Shown piece after piece: positions 60-55,107 of a stretch of 64,000 nucleotides of DNA. Every line of letters begins with the position of its first letter. Position 1 is the first letter of the stretch. This DNA is from Gordius sp. MW1 (Eukaryota > Nematomorpha > Gordioida > Gordea > Gordiidae), in the NCBI GenBank assembly GCA_964036665.1, contig OZ038526.1:18042001-18106000 (forward strand), in the 5' to 3' direction. Made by a program: the position numbers and the translations under genes. The notes beneath the pieces were generated by a model. The model was not told where the DNA came from. It did not search any database and worked only from the letters and a program-made list of their open reading frames with translations.

Positions 60-345
60 GTAAACTTCAGTAAGCGGGCTGTGATAGACGATAGAATTTA
101 TTTTGACTTACGCATATTAGAGATCTGCAACGGGCTGTTTTTAGAAGGTCGGCCCGCCCATACCCGTTTTCAAAACTTCAAGGCCCGTCCGAGCCCGCCC
201 GTTATTTTTTTCCATCACTTCAAGCCCGGTAAATTTTTTAGGCGCGTCCTTAAATTTCTCAGGCCCGTTCGTACCCGTTTAGAAAAAAGTTAAGCCTGCT
301 CAAGCTCGTTCAAATTTTTTTGAAGCCCCGCGCCCGGTCCCATCA
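60..345. repeat. GGCCCG/CCCGTT-rich subterminal repeat block
   Basis: Imperfect repeats of GCCCG, CCCGTT and CGGGCT alternate with AT-rich spacers. The pattern resembles the reiterated subterminal motifs of hAT elements seen elsewhere in this window (GGGCTGGG at 19.0-19.9 kb, TCTCG family). I did not find its other end. The 70-residue open frame across it follows the repeat and is not considered a gene. Confidence 0.4.
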
Positions 346-1083
346 AAACTTTCACAAAATTTTATATTATTTTTTGACATATTTATAAAAAAACATCAAT
401 AATTATAATGTAAAAATAATATATTATCAATTATTTGTGCAGTTAATATGCCTAAAAATTTTAGTATAGTACTACCATTAAATTACTTTAAAAAATTACA
501 TCTGAATATTCCACTTTAAAAAATTTACTTTTATTTGATTAGTTTAAGTTAACACACCTAAAAAGTTAGAATTCAGTATTACCATTAAATTAAAATACTT
601 TAATAAAATGACATTACATGAGAATATTCAACCTTCAATAAGCAGTTTACATTGATTTCATTAATTTATATCAGTTAATACATCTAAGTTTTAGATTAGA
701 ACAAAATATTTATTAAATTTATGGCCCTAATAATAATTATAAATTTGTGAAAAAATTGAAGGGTATATTTAATAGAAAGCATAATTTGCTGCTTTTGCTC
801 GCAACTAGTTAAATGATTATATATAATAAATGAGTTTAAAATATAATACTTTTTAATCATTAGCTCCTCCCACACATCTCAAAAACTAGCAAAAGCAATG
901 CAACACTCTGACTGTGTTGAATTAATGAAAAATATAATGGTTTGTGAGTAAAGAAAAAATAATATTTAATATATATTGTAAGTTGTTGAAATTTAATATG
1001 TATAATCTATTGAATTAGTGGGGGGGGGGGGGGTAGAGGCCCCCCCAAGCAATTATTTAGTATAGCGTAATTTAATTAATAAA
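346..1083. other. AT-rich intergenic DNA, no gene seen
   Basis: Very AT-rich sequence with no convincing open frame; a G-tract lies at about 1020-1033. Nothing else recognised. Confidence 0.5.
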
Positions 1084-1616
1084 CGAGGGCCTTCGGCCCT
1101 CGTGGCAAGGGGGAGAAGGGAATGGAAGAGGGGAAGGGAAGGGGGGACGACTCATCTGTACTTCGTATAAATGTATCATATTTGCTATGCAATTTATGGG
1201 CGAGAAAGGTGGGAAGGGGCGAGAATGCCTATAGGGGGGTATTAAATGTCTAATGATTAATTAATTATTTATACAAATTTTCCATTTATAGGCAAAATGT
1301 AATATGGCAAAATGTAATATAGGCAAGGGTTAGGGTTAGATTTAGTGTTTGCATCTAGTTGCGTATTACATTAGTTTTTATGGCCTTTAGTGATTATGGG
1401 TCTAACAAACATTATATTATAAAACATCACAATGTTAAGAATTTGCAGAATTGTTGGGAGAAATTTTTTGTTGAATTTGAACAATTTTTAATTAAAAAAA
1501 TCAAAAATTTGGCCAATGGTCATTTTTCTCTAATGGTCAGTACCAACAGATACTCTATAAGTCAATGATAGCCAAAAAAACGGAAAAAAATTTTTGATGC
1601 TCACTTTGGCCAATTA

Positions 1617-1870
1617 TGGTTACACTCTTATTTGAATATCGTTACTTAGGAAAGAATTTAACCTTCTAGGTAATTAGAATAAAGCAACTTGCTCGTCCGA
1701 AGAACTTAACCATTCACACCCATCACTATTCATAAATCTTAACTTTATTATTTTACCACTCACCTCGCTACTATCTAAACAAGATGTTTTAACTAAATAT
1801 TCATTCATTTCGAATCATTTTTATTTTGGGTTATAAATAAAAGTAAAAGTAGAGAACATATTTCTCTACA
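1617..1870 (+). repeat. 5' LTR of the miniature LTR element
   Basis: Direct partner of 2849-3101; followed immediately by the PBS-like TGGTGACCCCG. Confidence 0.65.
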
Positions 1871-2848
1871 AATGGTGACCCCGTATTTTCGGGGGAGCCC
1901 AATTTTTTTTCTCCCTCCCCCTTAAAATTTATAACCCGGGTCCACATTGACCCCGACTTTCGGGGAGACATATTTTTCTCCCCATAACAGTCCCTTTAGT
2001 AATGGTGTTTGGTTTTCTTAGTTAAAAATAAAACAATTCAGATATAGGGCCTTATCTTCTCAATCCGGCGTCCATATGGTACTACTGCTGAAAGATACAA
2101 ACTACCTACCTATCTGATTGTTAAAACGAAAGAAAACCATGTGACCCTACTACAACACTACACAAGCAACAACATCGTCTACCGAACGTACAATTGACCT
2201 CTGCCCTGCCAATGGCCTCACTGCAAAACACATCCCATAATAAGCAACATCATATAACCTATTACAACTAGCAAGTACAACGTTCGACAATGCAACAACA
2301 CTTAACTACTACCACTACCAAAGTTCTAACCAATACTGACCGATTAAACTGAGGGATGAATGCGATTCCAAAATAGATATGTCTTCTCCGACAAATCTTA
2401 CTAATATAAAGGATAGCACATTAACTTAAATCATCACTTACCTCTCGGTCACAACACCAGCCAACACTATTGCAAACACTAAACAACATTGACAGCCAAT
2501 ACAATTGCAAACACTAAACAACATTGGCAGCCAACACAATTGCAAACACTAAATAAAATTGGCCAACTAAGTTAACAGCTAGTCTATCTCATTTAGACGA
2601 AAAGAACAAACTTTCACTTTAACTTTGCAGTATTAACAAACATTAAACGGTGATATACTACCACTTGCTTTCTATTCAAATAAATTTCAACGCAAACACG
2701 CTACAACACCTTCAGTTGAGAACTACTGGCCATTTACCTTATGCAAAACATTACAAACATGTTCTCGAAGGCCACATTTTCACCGCATACACCTACCAAA
2801 AAAACCTTAAATGGCACTTCACTCCGTGAAACTGGTGAGGGAATTATA

Positions 2849-3101
2849 TGGTTACACTATTATTTGTATATCGTTACTTAGGAAAGAATTTAACCTTCTA
2901 GGTAATTAGAATAAAGCAACTTGCTCGTCCGAAGAACTTAACCATTCACACCCATCACTATTCATAAATCTTAACTTTATTATTTTACCACTCACCTCGC
3001 TACTATATAAACAAGATGTTTTAACTAAATATTCATTCATTTCGAATCATTTTCATTTTGGGTTATAAATAAAAGTAAAAGTAGAGAACATATTCTCAAC
3101 A
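2849..3101 (+). repeat. 3' LTR of the miniature LTR element
   Basis: Near-identical to 1617-1870, preceded by a polypurine-like tract and followed by the resumed satellite (ATGGTCATTTTT). Confidence 0.65.
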
Positions 3102-3700
3102 ATGGTCATTTTTTTCCATTGGTCAGCAGCCAGCACACGGTAAAAGTGGATATAAATTCATAAGAGTAAAAAAAACGAAAAAAAAATTTTCGAATCACAT
3201 TTTGGTCAATGGTCATTTTTTTCCATTGGTCAGCAGCCAGGACACGGTAAAAGTGGATATAAATTCATAATAGTCAAAAAAAAAAACGAAAAATAAGTTT
3301 TCGAATCACATTTTGGCCAATGGTCATTTTATTCCATTGGTCAGCAGCCAGCGGACGGCCAAAAAGTCATAATAGCAAAGGTAGGAACAGGAACAATCAT
3401 AATAGTCAAAAAAAACGAAAAAAATAATTTCGATTCACATTTTGGCCAATGGTCATTTTTTCCATCGGTCAGGAGCCAGCGGACGGCCAAAAAGTCATAA
3501 TAGCAATGGTAGTAACAGGAATAATCATAATAGTCAAAAAAAACGAAAAAAACCTCGGATTTACATTTTGGCCAATGGTCATTTTTTTCATTGGTCAGCA
3601 GCCAGCGGACGGCCAAAAAGTCTTATTATCAATGATGGTAACAAGAACAATCATAAGAGTAAAAAAAACTCCGGGATTCTAAACCAAAAACTAGTTAAAT
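3102..3700 (+). repeat. Satellite array of copy A, period about 110-129 bp
   Basis: TTTTGG(C/T)CAATGGTCA recurs at about 3200, 3311, 3440 and 3566. Each unit holds CATTGGTCAGCAGCCAG and a poly-A-rich AAAAAACGAAAAAA segment. Short forms carry an ACACGGTAAAAGTGG variant, long forms a CGGACGGCCAAAAAGTC variant. Overlapping frames in several phases are products of the repetition. Confidence 0.8.
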
Positions 3701-3889
3701 TGCATAGCAATTAAAAGTAAACAACTTTTATTTATGTTTATTTTATAATACAAACCCTTGTAGTGGAGGGCATAGGGTAATTATAGCAATTAATATCAAT
3801 GTTACCCAATTCAAAAACGAATAGATATACTTATGCATTAATTTAACGTAGCAATTAAAACCCGACCCCGCCCGAAAGCGAGGGAGATA

Positions 3890-4330
3890 GAGATGAGGGG
3901 TGGGGCACCTCTTATGTATTAATTTAAAAAATAACACAGCGAGGGAGATAGAGATGAGGGGTGGGGCACCTCTTTCTCATGCATTAATTTAAAAAATCGA
4001 TAACCTAAAATACCCAATGCAAATAGATAGGGAGGGTAGACAACGGACAACGGACTACCAAAAAACGAGCCCATAAATTGCATAGCAATTAATAATTATT
4101 TTAATTGCTATGCAATTTATGGGCTCGTTTTTGGTTGTCCGTTGTCCGTTGTCCGTTGTCCGTTACCCTATCTATTTGCATTGGGTATATTAGGTTATCG
4201 ATTTTTAATTGCTATGCATGAGAAAGAGGTGCCCCACCCCTCATCTCTATCTCCCTCGCTGTGTTATTTTTAATTGCTATGCATAAGAGGTGCCCCACCC
4301 CTCATCTCTATCTCCCTCGCTGTGTTATAT
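3890..4330. repeat. Junction palindrome between copies A and B
   Basis: GAGGGAGATAGAGATGAGGGG and GTGGGGCACCTCTT at 3890-3975 return inverted at about 4210-4325; the GCCCATAAATTGCATAGC motif is mirrored about a centre near 4090. The right arm has an expanded GTCCGTT heptamer run (4137-4164). This is where two element copies abut head to head. Confidence 0.75.
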
Positions 4331-4472
4331 ATAAGATTTGTTAAATTATCTATTATATAAACATAAATAAAAGTTGTTTACTTTTAATTGCTATGCAATT
4401 TAACTAGTTATATAATAAGCATAAATAAAAGTACACTGAAGCAATTGTTTATTTTATTATGCAAGATTTACA

Positions 4473-4507
4473 TTAAATGAAACTAAAAACAACATAAAAA
4501 TCATAGA
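4473..4507. repeat. 35-bp inverted repeat, left of the RT frame
   Basis: Perfect reverse complement of 6858-6892, which spans the stop codon and 3' flank of the RT frame. The match stops sharply on both sides. Confidence 0.85.
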
Positions 4508-6864
4508 CACCCCCTATTATTTACGAGCCACACATCCATAAGATTACATCAGTTCAACAAAGAGCCAAACGGGTTTCCGCTAAACTCAACCTTTTCGACA
4601 TCCAGGGTGCTCTTCGCCTGGCCAATTCAGACTGCAAAATTTCCCCAGACACTCAAGAAACCTTCGAATCTTTACAAATTAAACACCCTGAAAGAAATTG
4701 CTCCCAATTTCCCTCTACAATCAATTCCCCCTTCAAGGACTTCACATCGCATGAAATTCTCGAGGCTATCGGTTCTTTTAAAAAATCCTCAGTAGGTTCT
4801 GGTTTAGACGGTTTCCGGGCTTCACATTTAATAGAATTAACAAGACCTCACATTGACAGGTCTGGCCACTTCACATCCACCCTAGCAATCTTCCTTAACC
4901 AGGTTATTAAAGGCTTAGTACCTGACGCGATCTCTCCCTACTTTTTTGGGGCCACCCTAATATCACTTACCAAACCAGATGGTGGCCTTCGTCCAATAGC
5001 CATGGGTTCAATTTTTAGACGCCTATGCTGCAAACTAATTATTGCTCGAGTAAAAACCAACATTGCAGATCAATTAGCTCCCATCCAACTAGGTTTCGGA
5101 ATCAAGTGTGGTTGTGAAATCGCCTCTCACGCTGTCCGCATAGCCCTCGCCCATCCCGACCATTCGATCCTAGCTAAGATCGACTTCAAAAACGCCTTTA
5201 ATACTATCTACAGGTCACACTTCTTAACAGAGGCTTACAAATTTCTTCCCGAGTACTCCATTTTCCTTAATGCATGCTACGCTCCTACTTCCATGCTCAA
5301 CTTTAATTCCAAAATAATTGCATCGAGTGACGGCATTCAACAAGGAGACCCGCTAGGCCCCCTACTATTCTGCCTAGGTATAAAATCCCTGACCGAAGAC
5401 CTAGCCTCTAAATATAATCTATCACTCAACTTGTGGTACCTAGACGATGGTACCATCAAAGGAAATGCAGAAGACGTCAAAGAAGCCCTTTCATACCTTG
5501 AAGTCGAAGCTTCAAAAATTGGTCTCCATCTTAATCATACCAAGACCGAGGTTTGCAAAAACAATACTGACCCTTTAAGCCTAGACCCATACTTTGACGC
5601 TTTCAAACATATTCACCCTAACGAACTAACGCACTTAGGATCTCCCATAGGTGGCTCACACCCTTGTAACAAGTTATTAACAGAGACAATCCTAAAACTA
5701 GTAGAAATCAAACCCCTCCTTTCTTACTTGCCAGCCCACCAGGCTTTCTTTTTAATTAAAAACTGCTATTCTTTACCTAAGATAAATCATATCTTCAGGT
5801 CATCCACCTCATTCTTAAATCCCAGTGCTCTATCTTTATTCGACCAAAAACTCAAAGACGTTGTCGAGGAAATCACAAACCTTTCTTTTACTGGGTCTCA
5901 ATGGAAACAAGCGTGTCTCCCCACAAAATATGGTGGTTTGGGCCTGAGATCATCCTCTCTTGTAGCTTTGTCGGCCTTCATCTCGAGTCGACTTTCAGCC
6001 AAACCAATCATCGACATACTAATCGATCAACCAGATCCTTTCACCCAAATCGCCCTCGACATGTGGAGTTCTTTGTCCGACCCTAACACTCCATTCCCTA
6101 CCATAAACTCTCAAAAGAGTTGGAACACTCCTCTCTACGACCATGCCCTTAAAACTCTTATATCGGGCGCATCGTTGGAGGAGTTACCAGCTTTAAGAAG
6201 TTTCGCATCAAGGTCCGGCCACGAGTGGTTGGAGGCCATCCCAAGTCGGACTCATGACCTTCAACTCTCCAACAACGAGTTCAGGATTGCAACAGGGCTC
6301 CGCCTAGGATGCGATATAGTTGCCTCTCATCAATGCAACTTATGTGGCTCATCCGTTGGTACAAAAGGTCACCACGGCCTGCATTGCAAATTTAATAAGG
6401 CCAGATTTCTACGGCACACATCCGTTAACGCTCTTCTACAGAAGACATTCAAAAAGGCGGGCTTTCCTTCCCAATTGGAGCCTAATGGTCTTTGCCTTAG
6501 CGACAAGAAGAGACCTGATGGACAGACCCTCATCCCATGGGCAAAAGGGCTATGCCTAGCTTGGGACTACACTTGTCCGGATGCCTTTGCTCCCTCAAAC
6601 CAAAACAAAGACCCCCTTGTTGATTCTGAAAGATTAAAATCCGCTAAATACGCAGAACTTAATTCCTCACTCCTTTTCTCCCCCATAGTGACCACTACCC
6701 TCACTACAATAGGTCCTAAAACCCAAGCCCTCCTGAAGGAATTGGGACGCCGCATAGCTGCCAATACCCTTGACAAAAGGGAAACTTTTTTTATAAAACA
6801 GAAAATCGGAATGATTATTTGCCATTACAACGCTATGGCAATTTTTGAATGTTTACCTCTATGA
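4507..6864 (+). CDS. Reverse transcriptase with C-terminal restriction-like endonuclease (non-LTR type), 5'-truncated
   Basis: An uninterrupted frame of 785 codons runs from the TAG at 4504 to the TGA at 6862; the first in-frame ATG (5002) falls inside the RT fold, so the N-terminus and true start are missing. RT motifs in order: IDFKNAFN (motif A), GIQQGDPLGPLLF (B), YLDDG (catalytic, C), then LGSPIGG. The C-terminal part has a C-x2-C...H-H...C knuckle (CNLCG, HHGLHC) followed by RPDG and AWDYTCPD, the layout of PD-(D/E)XK endonucleases in R2/NeSL-like elements. This family usually carries N-terminal nucleic-acid fingers, absent here. The protein would nick DNA and prime reverse transcription in the nucleus. 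The frame is intact, unlike the second copy at 51.5-55.1 kb. Mobility today is unknown. Confidence 0.8.
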   Translation, partial: TPPIIYEPHIHKITSVQQRAKRVSAKLNLFDIQGALRLANSDCKISPDTQETFESLQIKHPERNCSQFPSTINSPFKDFTSHEILEAIGSFKKSSVGSGLDGFRASHLIELTRPHIDRSGHFTSTLAIFLNQVIKGLVPDAISPYFFGATLISLTKPDGGLRPIAMGSIFRRLCCKLIIARVKTNIADQLAPIQLGFGIKCGCEIASHAVRIALAHPDHSILAKIDFKNAFNTIYRSHFLTEAYKFLPEYSIFLNACYAPTSMLNFNSKIIASSDGIQQGDPLGPLLFCLGIKSLTEDLASKYNLSLNLWYLDDGTIKGNAEDVKEALSYLEVEASKIGLHLNHTKTEVCKNNTDPLSLDPYFDAFKHIHPNELTHLGSPIGGSHPCNKLLTETILKLVEIKPLLSYLPAHQAFFLIKNCYSLPKINHIFRSSTSFLNPSALSLFDQKLKDVVEEITNLSFTGSQWKQACLPTKYGGLGLRSSSLVALSAFISSRLSAKPIIDILIDQPDPFTQIALDMWSSLSDPNTPFPTINSQKSWNTPLYDHALKTLISGASLEELPALRSFASRSGHEWLEAIPSRTHDLQLSNNEFRIATGLRLGCDIVASHQCNLCGSSVGTKGHHGLHCKFNKARFLRHTSVNALLQKTFKKAGFPSQLEPNGLCLSDKKRPDGQTLIPWAKGLCLAWDYTCPDAFAPSNQNKDPLVDSERLKSAKYAELNSSLLFSPIVTTTLTTIGPKTQALLKELGRRIAANTLDKRETFFIKQKIGMIICHYNAMAIFECLPL

Positions 6865-6892
6865 TTTTTATGTTGTTTTTAGTTTCATTTAA
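6858..6892. repeat. 35-bp inverted repeat, right end of the RT frame
   Basis: Covers the last codons, the TGA stop and AT-rich 3' flank; perfect inverted partner of 4473-4507. Confidence 0.85.
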
Positions 6893-7060
6893 ATAAAAGT
6901 TGTTTACTTTTAATTGCTATGCAATTTAACTAGTTTTTGTTATACAATAAACATAGATAAAAGTTGTTTACTTTTAATGCTATGCAATTTAACTAGTTAT
7001 ATAATAAACATAAATAAAAGTTGTTTACTTTTTAATTGCTATGTAATTTAACTAGTTTTG
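6893..7060. repeat. Tandem repeats of about 55 bp flanking the RT unit
   Basis: About three copies of a unit with AAATAAAAGTTGTTTACTTT, GCTATGCAATTTAACTAGTT and ATAATAAACAT; one more copy lies left of the RT unit at about 4360-4430. The RT unit therefore sits inside this short array. Confidence 0.7.
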
Positions 7061-7960
7061 GGGTTAGAATCCCGGAGTTTTTTTTGACTCTTATGATTGT
7101 TCTTGTTACTATCATTGATAATAAGAATTTTTGGCCGTCCGCTGGCTGCTGACCAATGAAAAAAATGACCATTGGCCAAAATGTGAATCGAAATTATTTT
7201 TTTCGTTTTTTTTTGACTATTATGATTGTTCCTGTTTCTACCATTGCTATTATGACTTTTTGGCCGTCCGCTGGCTGCTGACCAATGTTATATAATAAAC
7301 ATAAATAAAAGATGTTTACTTCTAATTGCTATGCAATTTAACTAGTTTTGGGGTTAGAATCCCGGAGTTTTTTTTGACTCTTATGATTGTTCTTGTTACT
7401 ATCATTGATAATAAGACTTTTTGGCCGTCCGCTGGCTGCTGACCAATGAAAAAAATGACCATTGGCCAAAATGTGAATCCGAGTTTATTTGTTCGTTTTT
7501 TTTTTACTATTATGATTGTTCCTGTTACTACCATTGCTATTATGACTTTTTGGCCGTCCGTTGGCTGCTGACCAATGGAAAAAATGACCATTGGCCAAAA
7601 TGTGAATCGAAATTATTTTTTTCGTTTTTTTTTGACTATTATGATTGTTCCTGTTCCTACCATTGCTATTATGACTTTTTGGCCGTCCGCAGGCTGCTGA
7701 CCAATGGAATAAAATGACCATTGACCAAAATGTGATTCGAAAATTGTTTTTTCGTTTTTTTTTGACTATTATAAATTTATATCCACTTTTACCGTGTCCT
7801 GCCTGCTGACCAATGGAAAAAAATGACCATTGGCCAAAATGTGATTCGAAATTTTTTTTTTCGTTTTTTTTTACTATTATGAATTTATATCCACTTTTAC
7901 CGTGTCCTGGCTGCTGACCAATGGAAAAAAATGACCATTGGCCAAAATGTGTTTCGAAAA
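7060..7960 (-). repeat. Satellite array of copy B
   Basis: Reverse complement of the copy A satellite (TGACCATTGGCCAAAATGTG repeated). A 236-residue minus-strand frame runs across it (7485-8195), but it is a translation of the repeat and is not annotated as a gene. Confidence 0.75.
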
Positions 7961-8571
7961 TTTTTTTTTCCGTTTTTTTGGCTATCATTGACTTATAGAG
8001 TATCTGTGGGTACTGACCAATAGAGAAAAAGTGACCATTGGCCAAATTTTTGATTTTTTTAATTAAAAATTGTTCAAATTCAACAAAAAATTTCTCCCAA
8101 CAATTCTGCAAATTCTTAACATTGTGTTGTTTTATAATATAATGTTTGTTAGACCCATAATCACTAAAGGCCATAAAAACTAATGTAATACGCAACTAGA
8201 TGCAAACACTAAATCTAACCCTTGCCTATATTACATTTTGCCGTTATTACATTTTGCCTATAATGGAAAATTTGTATAAATAATTTATTAATCATTAGGC
8301 ATTTAATACCCCCCTATAGGCATTCTCGCCCCTTCCCACCTTTCTCGCCCATAAATTGCATAGCAAATATGATACATTTATACGAAGTACAGATGAGTCG
8401 TCCCCCCTTCCCTTCCCCTCTTCCCTTCCCCTCTTCCCTTCCCTTCTCCCCCTTCCCACGAGGGCCGAAGGCCCGAGTTTTTATTAATTTTTAGATAAGT
8501 AAATCTTTTAATTGAGTTAAGTGACTTATTAATATTAAATTTCTGCTTTGGTTATTTATAAACAAGATTTA

Positions 8572-8682
8572 ATTTAATTTTAAAAGCTCCAAACAACAAC
8601 TATTAAATACGTTTGGTATATTTTTTGGGATTGTTAATTTTAAAACCTCCTAACAACAACTATCAAATATGTATGGTATTAA
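8572..8682. repeat. 46-bp tandem duplication
   Basis: Two diverged copies of a unit beginning TTAATTTTAAAA and ending ATGTATGGTAT or ACGTTTGGTAT, between copies B and C. Confidence 0.6.
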
Positions 8683-10078
8683 TTGCTATGCAATTTATGG
8701 GCTCGTTTTTTGGTTGTCCGTTGTCCGTCCGTTGTCCGTTGTCTACCCTCCCTATCTATTTGCATTGGGTATATTAGGTTATCGATTTTTTAAATTAATG
8801 CATGAGAAAGAGGTGCCCCACCCCTCATCTCTATCTCCCTCGCTTTCATGCGGGGTCGGGTTTTAATTGTTACGTTAAATTAATGCATAAGTATTTCGTT
8901 TTTGAATTGGGTAAAATTGATATTAATTGCTATAATTACCCTATGCCCTCCACTACAAGGGTTTGGGGTAGAATCTCGGAGTTTTTTAGACTCTTATGAT
9001 TGTTCTTGTTACTATCATTGATAATAAGACTTTTTGGCCGTCCGCTGGCTGCTGACCAATGAAAAAAATGACCATTGGCCAAAATGTGAATCCGAGTTTA
9101 TTTTTTCGTTTTTTTTGACTATTATGATTGTTTCTGTTACTACCATTGCTAATACGACTTTTCGGCCGTCCGCTGGCTCCTGACCGATGGAAAAAATGAC
9201 CATTGGCCAAAATGTGAATCGAAATTATTTTTTTCGTTTTTTTGACTATTATGGTTGTTCCTGTTCCTACCATTGCTATTATGACTTTTTGGCCGTCCGC
9301 TGGCTGCTGACCAATGGAATAAAATGACCATTGGCCAAAATGTGATTCGAAAACTTTTTTTTCGTTTTTTTTGACTATTATGAATTTATATCCACTTTTA
9401 CCGTGTCCTGGCTGCTGACCAATGGAAAAAATGACCATTGGCCAAAATGTGATTCGAAACTTTTTTTTTGATTTGTTTTTGACTATTATGAATTTATATC
9501 CACTTTTACCGTGTCCTGGCTGCTGACCAATGGAAAAAATGATCATTGGCCAAAGTGAGCATCAAAATTTTTTTTCCCGTTTTTTTGGAGATCATTGACT
9601 TATAGAGTATCGTTGGTATTGACCAATAGAGAAAAAATGACCATTGGCCAAATTTTTGATTTTTTTAATTAAAAATTGTTCAAATTCAACAAAAAAATTC
9701 TCCCAACAATTCTGCAAATTCTTAACATTGTGATGTTTTATAATATAATGTTTGTTAGACCCATAATCACTAAAGGCCATAAAAACTAATGTAAAACGCA
9801 ACTAGATGCAAACACTAAATCTAACCCTAACCCTTGCCTATATTACATTTTGCCTATATTACATTTTGCCTATTTTACATTTTGCCTATAAATGGAAAAT
9901 TTGTATAAATAATTAATTAATCATTAGGCATTTAATACCCCCCTATAGGCATTATCGCCTTTCTCGCCCATAAATTGCATAGCAAATATGATACATTTAT
10001 ACGAAGTACAGATGAGTCGTCCCCCCTTCCCCTCTTCCCTTCCCTTCTCCCCCTTCCCACGAGGGCCGAAGGCCCGAG
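8683..10078 (-). repeat. Hairpin/satellite element, copy C (inverted)
   Basis: Starts with TTGCTATGCAATTTATGGGC and GTCCGTT repeats, continues through the CCCCACCCCTCATCTC block, a satellite at about 9000-9580, the conserved flank and the GC hairpin at about 10059-10078. It carries no RT unit or LTR insert, so it shows the unoccupied structure. The 17-bp unit TATTACATTTTGCC is reiterated near 9838-9890. Confidence 0.65.
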
Positions 10079-11582
10079 TTTATTATTTGGGATTGGGGCA
10101 ATGGGGGCAATACCAAATTGTTATAAAGATAGTCGCTATATAGTTTTACCAATTGTATTATTTTACAAAAGTTAGCATATTTTTTGTTACTATACCCGTT
10201 CCATCTTGGACTTTCATTAATTTGTACAAACTCACAATAGGCCATCTTATTTTATGTAGCCTCAATCTATTTAATTAGGTACATAGTTTCGTTGTTATTT
10301 AACTATGTTCATAAATAATTTATTGGGGGTGGACGTGCAGTCTCTAATCGATACCTGGACGTGCAGTCTCTAATCGATACCTGGTTTTTGTTTTAAAGGA
10401 AACAATGGACCGAAGATGGGCCGTAATATAACCTGCGGGCTCGGGCCGTGCAGAGGTATAAGTAAGACCCCCGCTGAGTCTGTTACAAAATCATATAAAT
10501 TTCTTGTATACATTATAAAGTATAAAGAAAGGTGTGTTCTTATGTTATATATTAATTTATATTTATTTAATGTTTTAACAATAAAATTATATTTTTCTCG
10601 TAACTAATTCACTCATGAAAATCTCAACGCGCATTTCAAATTGATAAGTGTTAAATGGAGACTATATATAAAAATCTATAAATTTTAAATTAGGCTAATT
10701 TAAAACGGCTTACTTTTTTACATGATTATTATTAACATCTGTAACACAGATATATTGTATATTCAATAAAAAAAATACAATCGAATATTAAAAGATGCAA
10801 AATAAAAGTTTTTGATAAGGGTTTTCTAATAATAACGAAAATGTTGAATGAATACACGTGTCCTTTTAGATTTATCAATATAAAAGGTTACAAAAATTAT
10901 AACGTATGAAGTATTAAAAACCCCAAATTCGAACCTGGTACAAAATCGTAGGGCAATCGCAATTTTAAAAGGTATTTAAATTGTCGCAAATTAAGTGTCG
11001 CGATTTATGGCCACATGCTAAAACCTCCTCTCTATACTATCTATTTTATGCCAAAACATACGAACAAGTCTAATGTATCGTTATATTTACCTTTCTAATT
11101 TTTAGGTCCTCATTACGACTCGCAACGTTCTATATAATCAATAATAGCATGCCTCTCTCGCTGTGTTGCTATGATACAAATTGAAAAATGGCCTAGCCAG
11201 CCGTGAATTGAGAATGAAATATGGCTTAATGCGTCGGTTTGATAACTATGTTCAAATTAAGCAACTTAAAATAAGTATCTGGCTCGGCTACCGTTTTCAC
11301 AATTATACACTGCAAAAGGGTAAATCCTTAAATTTATTTAGTTTAAAATCAAGACGTATCATAAGTTATAATAAATTAGGCTGCAGGGCAACCATATATA
11401 CAATTACAAGTGATTTTACGATAGAATACAATATATAGACGGTGAGGAGATTGTGGGAGAAGGCGGCATACTTTGTAATGTGTTAAATAAACATGGCTAA
11501 GACAAATCAAGTTACATATACTAGGTAAGAGGTAACGACAATCATAAATCTAAGGGTGTGTCTCGGGGAGTGAGTGCTATAA
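10079..11582. other. Intergenic DNA with a 27-bp tandem duplication
   Basis: GGACGTGCAGTCTCTAATCG plus seven more bases is repeated twice at 10331-10384. Otherwise AT-rich; two frames of 60-85 codons (10416-10607, 11181-11438) show no recognisable domain and are not called. Confidence 0.5.
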
Positions 11583-35957: not shown

Positions 35958-36249
35958 TTTCAATCAATTCAAGAGCTAGATTTGGGTGCAACCTTTACAA
36001 TTTACTTATGTCAGAATCACATTTAATTTGTTAAATTTATACAATAAACCATTTAGTACACAAATGTTTAAAATTATTACTTTCAATCAATTCAAGAGCT
36101 AGATTTGGGTGCAACCTTTACAATTTACTTATTTGATAATCATATTTAATTTGTTATATTTATACAATAAACCATTTAGTACACTAATGTTTAAAATTAT
36201 TACTTTCAATCAATTCAAGAGCTAGATTCGGGTGCAATCTTTACAACTT
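35958..36249 (+). repeat. 123-bp satellite, left portion
   Basis: TTTCAATCAATTCAAGAGCT begins units at 35958, 36081 and 36204. The array resumes right of the Ty3/gypsy element at about 41203 and 41324. Confidence 0.85.
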
Positions 36250-36692: not shown

Positions 36693-36713
36693 AATTGGTA
36701 ACCCATCTTAAAC

Positions 36714-37593
36714 ATGAACACGCAACCTACTGATTTTTCAACTTCCAATGAGGAAATACCAATAAACACTTCTACTACTGGAGGTATCAAGCAGGAATCA
36801 ATTGTCCACATCAAAATCCCTGATTTCCACTCTAGGAACATTCAGATTTGGATAGCACAGGTCGATGCTATATTCTCAACCAGGAGGATATCTTCTCAGA
36901 AGGTAAAATATGCATATTTACTAGAATCTCTCCCCATAGAAGTGGCAGAGGAGGTCGCTGATCTCATCCTTAACATCCCAGAAGAGAATCCATATGATGC
37001 CTTAAAACAAGCATTGATTAAAAGAATTGGACAAGAATCCAAAAGCTCTTCAAGGATGTCGATAAACGACAAATCCCCAAGTCAACTCTTACGACATTTA
37101 AAGTCCTTACTAGGAGAACACCAAATGAGCGATACAATTCTCAAGAACTTATGGGTAAACAAAATGCCTAAAGAGATTACAGGAATTCTAATCTGTTTGG
37201 GAGAAGAAAAATCTCTATCAAGTTTAGCTGAAGTCGCTGACCGAATATATGAAACAATTTCACAAAATAATTATATTACTACTATAGCTAAATCCACTGA
37301 TAGTGACAAGGCTATACAGGATTTAACAAAAAAAATTAGTAATTTAGAGTTACAGATAAACAATTTATCTCAACGATCCTACCATGGAAGAGTACGAACA
37401 AGAAGTAATTCATCGGAACAGGGCACAAAAACACCCATACTGTTATTATCATTCCAAATTCCAGGACAAGGCTCGCAAATGCGTAAAGCCCTGCGCCTTC
37501 ACGGATGACACTAAAAAAACTAACAGGCCGGGTGGTCCAGACGACGGCTACTGCTGGCACGGATTCAAACAGTCGTCTATTCTACATTATTGA
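36714..37593 (+). pseudogene. Gag of the Ty3/gypsy element
   Basis: The main frame (36714-37508) encodes a 264-residue capsid-type protein with the IQIWIAQVDAIF and NPYDALKQAL motifs usual in this arthropod/worm gypsy group. Its downstream nucleocapsid-like part (CYYH, KARKCVKPC) is in another frame (37384-37593), so a frameshift lies near 37400. The start ATG at 36714 follows the 5' LTR by 21 bases and a TGGTAACCC sequence that could be the primer-binding site. Confidence 0.7.
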
Positions 37594-40571
37594 ACAAACG
37601 TCGAAACAAAAGTATCTTATCGATACCGGCGCCGAAGTTAGCATTATTCCACCACCAGCCAATTTCCCAAAAATTTCAAATGGTCCGGTATTGCAAGCTG
37701 CCAACAAAAGCAACATTTGCATCTTTGGACAAAAGATGTTAGCTCTAAACCTAGGCCTAAGACGTGAGATACAATGGATATTCCTGATAGCAGACGTTCA
37801 CACGCCGATTATAGGAGCTGACCTGTTACACAAACACAATCTGATGGGGGACATTAAAAACAAAAGATTAATCGACGGAGTGACACATCTATCCTCAAAA
37901 GAATTCGCCTCACAGCACCAAACACTTGGAATTCGTGTAGCATTCACTCATCAGAATTCTAAATTCAAGGCCATATTAAAAGACTTTCCGTCGCTCACTT
38001 CACCATTAAACTTTACGGGTCAAATCCCACAGCACGACGTACGACACCTCATTCTGACAAAAGGCCCAGCCCAACACTCACGCCCCAGATGATTGGCGCC
38101 CGATAAATTAAGTGCAGCCAAAAAGGAGTTCAAATATATGCTGGAACTAGGTATCATCAGTGAGTCAAAAAGTAATTGGGCATCCCCATTACATTTGGCT
38201 GTCAAAAAATCAGGCGACTGGAGACCCTGCGGGGACTATAGAAGCTTGAATAAAGTAACGGTTCCCGACCGATACCCAATACCCCACATACATGACTTCA
38301 CAGCAAATCTATGCGGAAAAACTGTTTTTAGCAAATTGGATTTGGTAAGAGCATACCATCCTATTCCGGTTGCACAGACATCTGCAAGACAGCCGTAACG
38401 ACACCGTTCGGACTTTTCGAATTCCATAGAATGCCTTTTGGGCTAAAGAACGCCGCACAAACCTTCCAGAGGTTTATCGACGTAGTTTTAAGAGGAATAG
38501 AAGGAACCTACGCATATATAGATGATATTCTATTAGCTAGCTCGTCAGACGCGGACCATGAAAGGCTCCTAAAAACCGTTCTTCAACGTCTACAAGAATA
38601 TGATTTGAGGATAAACCCGCCAAGTGCCAATTCGGAGTCGGAGAATTAGAATTTCTAGGACACAGAATATCTTTTACAGGTAAAACCCCCCTACCGGAGA
38701 AGATTGATGCCATACAAAATTTTCCAATTCCGGATTCGAGTAAAAAACTCCGCAGATTCCTCGGTATGATAAATTTCTACCATAGATTCTTACCAGGAAT
38801 GGCGCAAACCCTACAGCCATTAACTGACATACTTAAATACCCTCGGAAATCCGTGGTTTTAAACGACAGTGAGAGGAAAGCGTTCGACAAGGCTAAAGCC
38901 GCGCTCGGCGAATTCACTACCCTAGATTTTTTGGACACCAGCCAAAAAACCAAAATTACGTTGACGACAGACGCATCCAATTCAGCGGTGGGTGCAGTGT
39001 TGGATTAAACTGTAGCAGAAAAAACTTCGCCTGTGGCATTTTTTTCGGTTAAGCTTCAGCCAGCTCAATCACGAGCACATTCAGTCGAGAACTCCTCGCC
39101 ATCTACCTATCTATCAAACACTTCAGACACATGTTAAAAGGCCGACACTTCACCTTTTTTACCGACCATAAGCCTTTAACCTACGCATTTAATGCGAAAC
39201 CTGACATATACTCGCCGCGTGAAACCAGGCAACTGGATTTTATATCTCAATTCACCACAGATATACAATACATCAACGGCGAAGCGTATCCAGTCGCGGA
39301 CGCACTTTCTTGGTTAGGAGTGGATGCTATCAAGTTACCAGAAATGCCCGATCTAGAATAGATTTGCAGACAACAAATAAATGACAAATCCATGAAAAGC
39401 TTAAAGGATTCATCATCTTTGAAGTTACAGTTATTGCCAATTCCAGGATCCGAGAGAAAAATTCTTTGCGATGTTTCAACTGCCAAACCTCGACCGGTCA
39501 TTCCAGAAACACTCAGAAAAACAGTTTTTGACCATTTTCACGCTATATCACACCCAGGCATACGCGCCACTCTGAAACTAATTACAAATCGAGTGGTCTG
39601 GCCGTCAATAAACAAAGACGTTGTTAGATGGGCTAGAACTTGCATAAGATGTCAACAAAGCAAGGTTTACCGACACACAGTTACGGTACCTGGAACCTTT
39701 GCTCAACCCGACGCCCGTTTCGCACACATACACATCGACTTGGTAGGACCACTAACACCGTCAAATGGATATACACATTTATTAACGGCAGTGGTCCGCT
39801 TCACCAGATGGCCCATGGCTATTCCCTTGAATGATACATCCACGGAGACGATCGCGAAAAAGTTGATAGAGCACTGGATTGCAAACTTTGGTGCCGCATA
39901 CGATTACCACCGACAGAGGACCACAGTTTCAATTATCTCTCTTCCGCGACCTTTCCAATCTCTTAGGATGCACACATATTAAAACAACCGCCTACCATCC
40001 CGCAGCAAACGGACTCGTCGAACGATTCCACAGACAACTTAAAGAGCCGTTAAAAGCCGCCGGCGAGACGAAGTGGAACGAAATTTTACCATTGATATTA
40101 TTAGGTTTACGTTCAACTATAAAAGAAGACATAGGTGCAACAACAGCAGAATTGGTGTACGGTACGAGTTTACGACTACCAGGAGACTTCGTCCTAAATA
40201 GCGAACCTGACCCATTACAACATTATTTCGTTGACAAGTTGAGGAGGACCATGGCAATTCCTTACCCCATACCAAAACACCATGCCACAACAAAAGAACA
40301 AGTCAGCAGAGATCTGTTCGAAGCAACCCACGTTTTTGTCAGAAACGACGCTGTACGTAAGCCACTCTCTCCAACGTATGACGGTCCTTACAAAGTATTG
40401 AAACGTCAACCAAAATACTTTGTTCTTGAAAAAAATGGCAAAAGAGATTCAGTCTCATTAGACCGATTAAAACCCTGTCATCTAAGTAGAGAGGAACCAT
40501 CCTTTCAGATTGCCGACGAAACTCAAGCTGAAGCAGACCCAAGAGGCGGAAGAACCAGCCAAAGTAACTAG
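37505..40571 (+). pseudogene. Pol of the Ty3/gypsy element (protease, RT, RNase H, integrase), multiply broken
   Basis: Protease has LIDTGAEVS (about 37616-37642). RT shows [11 protein letters not shown] and YAYIDDIL (catalytic pair at about 38518). RNase H has TTDAS and FTDHKPL. Integrase has an HHCC-type finger (HPGI, CIRCQQS), HIDLVGPL and [13 protein letters not shown]. Breaks: stop TGA at 38090, frameshift near 38385, frameshift near 38620, stop TAA at 39006, frameshift near 39080, stop TAG at 39359, frameshift near 39895. The last segment (39879-40571) reaches a natural-looking end. No chromodomain is apparent. It cannot yield a working polyprotein. Confidence 0.85.
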
Positions 40572-51128: not shown

Positions 51129-51449
51129 TTAGTGGTGCGGAAAATGAGAAAAATTATGATATCGTCTCGAAAAGCTCGAGATCGAGACGAGAATTTCAAC
51201 CTCGAGATACGAGATTTTATCGGCGAGATCTCGGCTTTAAGATTTGTAAATTGACCATCATATTCATAGAAAATTAAAGTTGTTTATTCCTCCAAACAAA
51301 GACACCAATTTATCCAAACATATCAAAGAAGCAATTCTAAATTTCAACAACGGAACACCCCCTACAATGTCAAATAAACAGACATCAAAGATAGATATAT
51401 CATTATAACAAAGAGCAAATCAAATCTCAAAAAAAAACAATTCTTACAA

Positions 51450-54400
51450 TTTAAGAGGTGCTTTGAATGTATTTTATAATAACCACACCATGGTATCTGC
51501 CAATCAAGATTTATTTACCAAATTAGTATCTTGCACCCTAACTCATATCATACATTTAAATACCCAAACAGTATTTCTTCATTGTCATTTTCTCCCCAAG
51601 AAATTAGTGAAGCTATCAACTCATTTCCCCTAGATTCCTCTGCAGGGTTAGATGGCATTAAACCTAACTTCTTGCAAGATTGAATCAATTTAAAGAACAA
51701 TTTTTCATACTCATTGCTTGAATCAATTACCCATCTTTGCAACTTAATTGTAAATGCCAATGTCCCTCAAGAGATTAGGCCAGTTCTCTTTGGTGCACGT
51801 CTTTTAGCTTTAAAAAAACCTAACAATTCCTTAAGACCCAACGCCATTGGGAGTGTATTCCGCCGTTTAATTTCTAAAATATTTTGCAAACGAATCAAAC
51901 CCTCATTGACCAATACCCTTTCACCTCATCAATTAGGCTTTGGTGTGAAGGGTGGATGTGAGGCTGCAAGCCATGCAAGTCGTATCACAATACAAAACCT
52001 TCATCCCGAACACTGTCTAGTGAAACTGGATTTCTCAAATGCCTTCAATCAGCTTAATAGAAACGTTTTTATGGAAAATTTTTTAGAAGAATTTCCCCAA
52101 TACGCAAATTATATCTTAGAAAGTTATGGATCACCATCCCTTTTAAATTTTGGCTCCTTTATTATTAAATCTGCTGAGGGCCTTCAACAAGATGATCCCC
52201 TTGGGCCACCATTATTTTGTTGCGGGATAAAGAAACTTATTAACCAAATTAAGGACCAGTGCGACCTATCATTACATGTGGTACCTAGATGATGCGACTT
52301 TGGCGGGCAGCTATGATCAGGTCGCCAAAGCCATAACCATTATCAAAGACTATTGTGTACCTTTAAATCTATCGCTCAACGATGGCAAATGCGAAATTTT
52401 ACAACCACCTACTTGCGACCAATATTCGATTTTTAAACCTTATTCCACCGTAGCTAAGGAAAAACTTTTTATGCGCGGTTCACCCATAGGCGGATCCGTG
52501 CTTGCAGGACTTTTTAAATAAACTGTAATGTCCGGCGGGTAAAAAAAGGCTGAGCGAAGGATTTAAAATAACTTTATTTACGCTAATGCGACTAAATATT
52601 TACAATTATAAAGACGATTTACAATTAAAATAATTGGCGACGGTAAAACTGAAATGTTTCGTAAAATTACAATAAAAGGGGAAAGATGTAGGGATTGGGG
52701 ACAATTACAAGGATTTAGGAAGAGTACAAAGTTTTGGAAAAATTTATAAGGACTGAATTATTGACATGGGATTTCGCTTTTATAGCTGTTGAATCTTCCC
52801 AGGGTGGTGGACTTGATTGAACGAGCAATGTACGGGAAATCTTCAGACGGGGCTGCAAAAATGAGTTCCATATGTGGCTGGGTTAAAAATTAAAATAAAA
52901 AGTAATTAAAAAAAGAAAGCGTCAAAGAAAATTAGCCACTTCCGCGTCTAGGTTAACCCGCGGTAAAAAATGCCTTCCTTTGACCAATTCCTTTTTTTAA
53001 TTATAAGGATTGCAGAACCGTTCTTTAACCCTTTTACATTAATATTAATAAAATAAATCTAAGTAAGATTAAAGTATACCGCGGACAGTAAAACGCGATA
53101 TACCAACATATGGTTACGTGGTATACACGTATACCACACCTTTCCCTTTTATTGAGAAGTCGAAGGGCCAGGGCTGTCCAAATTCAGGGTGTCCATAATC
53201 ACCCCGGACTCCAGCTCTGTGATATCGTTGGGTTGGGTTGTCTTTCCCAAACCGGTTTTTAATTTTAAGCACATTGGGGGCAGGTGTTTGGCCTTACACC
53301 CCCAACACAATATCGTATTCCTAGAAAATACGATTTAAATACTAAAAAAGGTCTAAGAGAAGGGGAATCATCAACATAAATAAATTGGAAGATCTGAGGA
53401 AAGTTATTGGGAAATATTGGGTAAGGGGGATAGGAAATTTCGAGGGCCGGGGAAAACCTTTTCCCCGGTAATGGTATTGTATTATTTCTACACCTCACAT
53501 GTCTATAAATTTTATTGATAACATCACAGAATCAACTAATTATCGAAATATAAAAATGTATTAATTATTGATATCAAAATTATCAAAGCAATCCGATAAG
53601 ACGCGTATATCGAAAATCACTCACGCGTAAGAAATAACAAATACGTATAAGCATAAGCGCGTCGGGGGGGGGGGGAATATACGCGTACTAGAAATTAAAT
53701 GTACAGGAATAGAGTTCTATGTACTACACATTAACTAGCATGTCCATGAAAGGCAGATGGTGTCGTAGACTACTACATTCTGAAGAACAAAAGAGAATAA
53801 GAGTACCTCGCGTATTATCATATACGTGTTAGAAAGTTAGCGGCGTTGTATGGGGGGGGGGGGTAGGTATCCTCGTATCGAGAGATACGATATAAACATT
53901 TAGCTTTGTTGGCCTCAAAAATGGAACTTTTAAAATTGTTACCAATACATCACGCCTTTTTTATGATAAAAAACTTTTTTAATATCTCCAAGATTCAGCA
54001 TTGTTTTAGATCAGCCGCTGCTTTTTTACATACTGATATTCTTAAATTATACGAATCCACAATTAAAAATCTCCTAGAAAAAATTTTAAACTTATCTTTT
54101 AATGATACTAGCTGGTTACAAGCCACACTTCCAACTAAATCTGGAGGATTAGGAATAAGGTCCCCTTTGACCATTAGCCTAGTAGCCTTCCTCTCGTCTT
54201 TCAATCTAGTTAAAGATCTCGTTTTAAATTGACCACCCATACGGAAGATTTTTTAACGCAAACTGCTTTAACATCATGGCTTGAAAATGTAATGCCAGGA
54301 GCCATTATTCCAGATTCAGTCAAACAACGAGATTGGGATGCCAGTATAGTGTCACGCTCCGTCGCTTACCTACTTTCGAGTTGTGACGCCGTACAGCATT

Positions 54401-55107
54401 TCAATCTCAGGTCACTAACGACTGACTCTGGTCACGAATGGCTGGAATGCATTCCAAGCAAGTTCTCTGGGCTCTTACTCTCAAACCCCGAAATTACTTA
54501 CGCGATCGCCTTGAGACTGGGGATCCCAATTTGCAAGCAATTGACTTGTAAAAATTGTAAGAAACAAATTGATGTTTGGGCCCACCACCCCTTACATTGT
54601 AAACTTAACAAATTCCGTTTCATTCGCCATCAAAAGATCAACCTTTTGATTCAAACCGCTTTACTAAAAGCCGGCTTCCCTTCTATTCTCGAACCATCTG
54701 AACCCACTCTTGAGGGTAGAATGCGCCCCGACGGAACATCCACAATTCCATGGGAGGATGGTAAGTTCCTATCTTGGGACTTTACTTGCATCGACGTATT
54801 TGCACCCTCTAACAATAACGCTGACCCATTAGCTCTTGCGGAAGCACGCAAAACTCATAAATACCGTGATATAACTCCTTCTAAAATTTTTATCCCTATC
54901 GTGGCTTCTTGTTCTGCCACTTTTGGCAAACAGGCATTAGCCTTCTTTAAATTGATGGGAAAGAGATCCCCCGAAGGAAAATACTCAGCAAGTTTTCTTT
55001 TAGGCCAAAAAATAGGAATTTTAATAGCCAAATACAATTATAAGACATTTTCCGACACCTGGCCCTCGATGAAGATGACGAGTAGTCACGCTTTTTATTT
55101 ATATTGA
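51450..55107 (+). pseudogene. Second RT/endonuclease non-LTR element, broken and split
   Basis: Related to 4507-6864. The left part (51.45-52.52 kb) has KLDFSNAFNQLN and WYLDDATL; the right part (53.9-55.1 kb) has KSGGLGIRS, a C-x2-C..H-x4-C knuckle, RPDGTSTIPW and SWDFTC. Breaks: TGA at 51681, frameshift near 52272, an insertion at about 52518-53900 and a frameshift near 54228. Motif B reads QQDDPLGP where the intact copy has QQGDPLGP. The 3' end has AATAAA followed by an A-rich tail (about 55142-55181), as left by reverse transcription of a polyadenylated RNA. The last 292 codons (54229-55107) are open. Confidence 0.75.
52518..53900. mobile_element. Insertion of about 1.4 kb in the second RT element
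   Basis: Splits the RT frame. Starts near TGTAATGTCCGGCGGG and ends near CGATATAAACA, with TG..CA-like ends; no ORF of note. Part (about 53110-53165: GTATACACGTATACC, then TTTTATTGAGAAGTCGAAG) matches, inverted, the 22.6 kb repeat family. Could be a solo LTR; its class is unresolved. Confidence 0.5.

Follow-up and report, generated by a model that had tools for sequence, protein, structure and literature searches.

In the window, meaning the whole 64,000-nucleotide stretch of Gordius sp. MW1 DNA analyzed here, positions 4432-6892 very probably represent one recent insertion of an R2-like, single-ORF LINE of the restriction-like endonuclease (RLE) type that was made by twin priming. The structure carries a 10-bp target-site duplication (TSD), an inverted arm from the 3' terminus of the element and a body without this terminus; body and target have 3 nt in common at their junction, and the two flanks together make up one complete repeat unit (Table 1). 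An initial annotation of the locus had noted a reverse transcriptase (RT) frame bracketed by a 35-bp inverted repeat and named twin priming at insertion among its possible sources. That source is favored by the build of the arm, by the TSD, by the repeat unit that reappears when the flanks are joined and by six comparable cases elsewhere in the subfamily.

Anatomy of the insertion

Comparison of the window sequence with itself showed that the two copies of the 35-bp repeat are exact reverse complements, confirming the perfect match that had been annotated. The repeat ends sharply on both sides, with ATTTACA versus CTTTTAT outward and CACCC versus GGTAA inward. By reasoning rather than simulation, a perfect match of 35 bp within 2.4 kb lies far beyond chance. 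The left copy is only the inner part of a 76-bp arm, the outer 41 bp of which (4432-4472) match the 3' untranslated region (UTR) of another copy, L009, up to the outer end of the arm and do not recur at the right end of the insertion. In the coordinates of the natural copy L011 (2,985 bp), the arm covers 2914 to the end, while the sense-oriented body covers 564-2948 with 99.87% identity over 2,385 bp (blastn) and is missing sequence at both element ends. Because the body lacks the 41 bp present in the arm, the element does not terminate at position 6892: its true 3' end is at the left of the insertion, and synthesis from the right started at an internal site of the RNA. The annotated view that the 3' end of the unit, stop codon included, is found inverted at the 5' truncation point therefore holds for the stop (TGA, 6862-6864), which the right repeat copy does contain, but not for the end itself, as the arm continues for 41 bp more. 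The window copy has neither poly(A) nor poly(T), and since the arm lacks poly(T), the evidence that it started precisely at the 3' terminus of the RNA is the L009 match.

Table 1 Features of the insertion in the window, and arms and bodies of the other armed copies in L011 coordinates
Feature	Position	Strand	Evidence
Left target flank, part of a ~57-bp tandem repeat	4375..4431	+	Joined-flank match
TSD, left copy, TAAATAAAAG	4422..4431	+	Sequence comparison
Inverted arm, first cDNA, with true 3' end: 41 bp of 3' UTR and 35 bp overlapping the body	4432..4507	-	L009 3' UTR match
Left copy of 35-bp repeat, overlap of the two cDNAs	4473..4507	-	Exact reverse complement of 6858-6892
Body, second cDNA	4508..6892	+	blastn to L011
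5'-truncated frame (RT, zinc knuckle CX2CX8HX4C, RH, RPD..D, KX2KY), stop at 6862-6864	4508..6864	+	Pfam, PDB matches, motif comparison
Right copy of 35-bp repeat	6858..6892	+	Exact reverse complement of 4473-4507
TSD, right copy; 6890-6892 (TAA) also fits the element	6890..6899	+	Sequence comparison
Right target flank, same ~57-bp tandem repeat, empty-site comparison	6900..7062	+	Tandem array 6890-7060 and joined-flank match
L025, arm; body	2889-end; 73-2912		
L026, arm; body	2803-poly(A); 663-poly(A)		
L029, arm; body (last bases common to TSD)	2885-poly(A); 893-2981		
L030, arm; body	2828-poly(A); 870-2901		
L070, arm; body	2770-2835; 2834-poly(A)		
L072, arm; body	2941-end; 2849-2969		

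The 41 unpaired outer bases bear directly on a second source named in the initial annotation, in which the cDNA from the right end folds back, primes itself and copies its own start, leaving an inverted 3' end at the left. Such snap-back junctions, with antisense element sequence at the 5' junction as in the window, have been reported for R2-driven insertions in engineered human cells (PMC11371274), so that snap-back is a serious rival for an R2-like element. However, an arm formed in this way cannot hold sequence that is missing from the copied cDNA, and the window arm extends 41 bp beyond the right end of the body. Together with the arms of the sister copies described below, this makes a snap-back origin extremely improbable.

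The TSD is an exact 10-bp match that brackets arm and body together. Its right copy begins with TAA, shared by target and element; these 3 nt are a weak microhomology, which may mark where the second primer annealed. When the flanks are joined across the insertion, they form a unit of a 57-bp repeat with 96% identity over 96 bp to a neighboring unit (6965-7059). The insertion sits in this 57-bp tandem repeat, which is itself within a large composite palindrome. This location, along with the abundance of the RT family (585 first-look candidates in the genome), is what speaks for gene conversion or recombination, either inside the palindrome or between two opposite copies, as the maker of the inverted repeat. 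On the other side, repeat and arm consist of element sequence, the single 10-bp duplication around both pieces points to one event, and a like anatomy with other breakpoints occurs at six other loci of the subfamily. The TSD and the arm content contradict the gene conversion suggested earlier, and we regard recombination of either kind as very unlikely.

Under twin priming, a staggered cut would have left two 3' overhangs of ~10 nt. The left overhang would have primed at the RNA 3' end and been extended by 76 nt, while the right one would have annealed 41 nt further in, at the TAA of the element, and been extended by 2,385 nt. Both cDNAs would then cover the same 35 nt of template and would have been joined at 4507/4508; this shared template stretch would produce the perfect inverted repeat. 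The simplest model, with one RNA, does not call for overlapping cDNAs; for the overlap to arise, either a second RNA must have been used or the first cDNA must have been displaced.

The element and its protein

The frame at 4507-6864 is open for 785 codons and contains an RT domain (Pfam RVT_1, E = 9e-19). The longest copies, L010, L011 and L015, reach a common 5' point, spanning 2,985 bp plus poly(A) with a single 937-aa ORF; L011 and L015 share the same flanks. From the agreement of these sequences, the common point is probably the real 5' end of the element. Given the longer copies, position 4508 is a 5' truncation that lies 152 codons into the ORF. The RT/endonuclease frame annotated as intact is accordingly open and carries RVT_1 but encodes a partial protein.

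The best PDB matches of the protein are R2 proteins (9nl3, E = 2e-7; 9dou, E = 3e-7). Its C-terminal part contains a knuckle, CNLCGSSVGTKGHHGLHC (CX2CX8HX4C), followed by RH, RPD with a further D 16 residues on, and KSAKY (KX2KY). For RLE LINEs, the corresponding motifs are defined as a CX2-3CX7-8HX4C knuckle, RH, PD..D and KX2KY (PMC5678591). The key knuckle and endonuclease residues are invariant in a paralogue at 54214-55104 of the same window. A CPVC...H.H stretch near the start of the 937-aa ORF of L011 resembles a zinc finger by eye only, and Pfam called no N-terminal zinc finger in this ORF. A second, broken RT relative occupies 51355-55065 of the window; it is 31-41% identical in pieces and has the same knuckle and endonuclease motifs.

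On these protein features, we read the element as an R2-like, single-ORF, RLE-type LINE. It resembles R2 and RLE LINEs in its single ORF, its matches to R2 proteins in the PDB, the spacing of its CCHC knuckle and its RH, PD..D and KX2KY motifs. It differs from R2 in having varied flanks instead of one fixed site and in that many copies end in poly(A). With such flanks it does not look like R2 proper, and the variety of flanks among the copies read speaks against insertion at the R2 site of the 28S rDNA. The 3' UTRs of L009-L028 and L048-L074 continue after a common TTGCAT with several unlike sequences before poly(A), which perhaps reflect readthrough from different source loci.

Inverted arms and target duplications across copies

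The genome (211.8 Mb, 12 contigs) was searched with 4473-6892, and 40 of the 585 first-look candidates were scored. Only the window copy matched from query base 1; in the other 39 long matches, the alignment started no earlier than query base 36. The initial annotation had also considered a real mobile unit bounded by the 35-bp repeat, to which the perfect ends and the surrounding TSD would lend themselves. The sole match from base 1 among the 40 scored candidates argues against it, as do the asymmetric arm with its 41 unpaired bp and the 17 of 20 copies read with long flanks that continue in element sequence upstream of the window's body. As the arms of other copies also start and stop elsewhere, such a unit is practically excluded. 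Recurrence with different flanks had been proposed as the check. In the same 40 candidates, this exact left repeat is missing from every other copy, as for an insertion scar, but scars of this type are found again in other copies of the family, so that the event is no one-off. A LINE frame bracketed by a perfect inverted repeat is not necessarily a new transposon, and like scars in sister copies are informative on how the family inserts. Of the alternatives 'recent or under constraint' offered for the identity of the repeats, a recent insertion fits the 99.87% identity to sister copies, and constraint is not needed.

A census of the subfamily by pattern search with the 3' end gave 52 matches; since two belong to L026 and two to L029, these represent 50 insertions, every one of which was retrieved. 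The 5' junction was readable in 46 of the 50 (not reached in L062, L068 and L071; flank reading N in L067). An inverted arm adjoins the body in seven of these 46, namely the window copy, L025, L026, L029, L030, L070 and L072, with different breakpoints in each. Second priming fell between position 2835 and the poly(A) of the 2,985-nt element in all seven, thus at most ~150 nt from the 3' end. The two cDNAs overlap by at least 24 nt in six of the seven and by 2 nt in L070. Microhomology at the arm/body junction, counted by eye, is absent (0 nt) from the window copy, measures 1-2 nt in the remaining armed copies and decides nothing.

The arms of L029 and L030 terminate in a long poly(T) and their bodies have no poly(A) tail, as expected if synthesis was primed on the poly(A). 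L026 carries poly(T) at one end and, at the opposite end, a poly(A) of lesser length. Snap-back is again difficult to reconcile with the sister copies. The arms of L025, L029, L030 and L072 hold UTR or poly(A) that is missing on the right, and that of L070 covers positions upstream of its body start. By sequence, snap-back fits L026 only, where the homopolymer of the arm is nevertheless longer than that of the body. Unlike the R2 snap-back junctions, arms in six of the seven cases (all but L026) contain sequence that a snap-back could not copy, which rules it out for these copies.

Related structures occur beyond the seven. L031, from another subfamily (~94% identical), has the same kind of structure with an unclear TSD. 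L009 (C5:21612468-21621852) is near full length and has a left poly(T) of >40 bp within a 12-bp TSD and a right run of ~6 A; it may be a twin-primed copy whose first cDNA consisted of nothing but poly(T), and it was counted apart from the armed copies. The near full-length L017 (C7:237065-246449) is joined at its 5' end to an 84-bp sense fragment of the same element (positions 2679-2762), which from its sequence looks like a template jump.

TSDs in the armed copies measure 10-14 bp, with 11-14 bp shared in the six besides the window. We compared flanks across the subfamily using 75 bases outside the arm or body and 100 bases at the right end, with a cut-off of 10 shared bp. The left segment started outside the arm and the right one at the end of the body, and matches did not need to touch the junction. 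Near-homopolymer matches were dropped, and a 10-bp A-rich match of L013 is therefore uncounted. Left out were L015 (flanks duplicating those of L011), L031 (other subfamily), L062, L068 and L071 (5' junction not reached) and L067 (N); L009 was kept in the no-arm group. Flanks shared at least 10 bp in 7/7 armed versus 6/38 unarmed copies (Fisher p = 3.8e-5), and 5.5% of 1,980 mismatched flank pairings reached 10 bp. Since the match found for the window was its own tandem repeat rather than the TSD, the test was repeated without the four tandem-sited copies, the window included, yielding 6/6 armed versus 3/35 other copies (p = 1.9e-5). The link between TSDs and arms thus still stands after this correction, and the TSD at the window is weaker evidence than those at the other six armed loci.

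The three unarmed matches outside tandem repeats are L009 with its poly(T) arm, L014 with a tail-like match and L016, which has a TSD, no arm and a 3' end primed early. L020 also ends early on its 3' side, at 2955, and has neither arm nor TSD, and L018, of seemingly ordinary structure, may possess a true TSD of 12-15 bp. L016, L018 and L020 count against a clean division into copies with arm and TSD and copies with neither. A long poly(A) is likewise missing from several other unarmed copies, and the absence of a tail is therefore not diagnostic by itself. By repeat phase L074 looks blunt, and L050 appears close to blunt by eye.

It is conceivable, and we propose it tentatively, that the geometry of second-strand cleavage decides the outcome. 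Early cuts leaving ~12-nt 3' overhangs would let both ends prime near the RNA 3' end and give twin-primed copies with a TSD, blunt or 5'-overhang cuts would give ordinary inserts without a TSD, and the usual cDNA overlap would reflect two RNAs copied at once, one per target end.

Comparison with known systems and surrounding repeats

Twin priming, or 5' inversion, is established for human L1, where one TSD encloses two opposite cDNAs, one from the RNA 3' end and one primed internally, often at microhomology. In cultured cells, the TSDs of most L1 inversions measure 10-20 bp and peak near 15 bp, and only one inversion was obtained from the two zebrafish LINEs of the same study taken together (PMC4245944). 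Among genomic L1 copies, inversion was not associated with short TSDs (PMC2912911). The window copy resembles these L1 events in having two opposite cDNAs inside one TSD. It differs in that the twin-primed element is an RLE LINE, and most unarmed copies of the family show no TSD. RLE LINEs generally make TSDs of 10-20 bp, with 13 bp for R4 (PMC6895275), a length near the 10-14 bp of the armed copies.

Twin priming itself is thus already known, and the interest lies in the family-level pattern in an RLE LINE. What makes this pattern notable is the frequency of twin priming, the second priming at most ~150 nt from the 3' end and the link to the TSD. In one model for R2, second-strand cleavage is late: the first strand is synthesized, a template jump follows, and only then is the second strand cut (PMC6895275). 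Twin priming would imply that the second end becomes available early, when little of the first cDNA has been made. Twin priming in 7 of 46 readable insertions of a natural RLE family would be in vivo evidence for early second-strand cleavage in this class. In the portions available, PMC6895275 brings up twin priming solely as an event of L1 that may be related; in the open-access literature, as far as its text was accessible, we found nothing further that pairs twin priming with a restriction-like endonuclease.

The composite palindrome around the insertion extends over ~9 kb (1080-10080 of the window, ends set by eye) and combines tandem units of 110-130 bp with long inverted arms that are 77-99% complementary among the pairs listed. 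Elsewhere in the genome, the same 57-bp repeat is occupied by the RT copy L018 and the short L074. Further repeats were seen in the window. Two 262-bp direct repeats, 97.3% identical and ~970 bp apart, lie at 1615-3106; the first is followed by TGGTGACCCCG, which by eye is like a tRNA primer site, and the whole resembles a small non-coding LTR element. Frames at 36702-40571 resemble, again by eye, gag-pol of a Gypsy-type LTR element, and a 123-bp tandem repeat lies beside them at 35958-36246.
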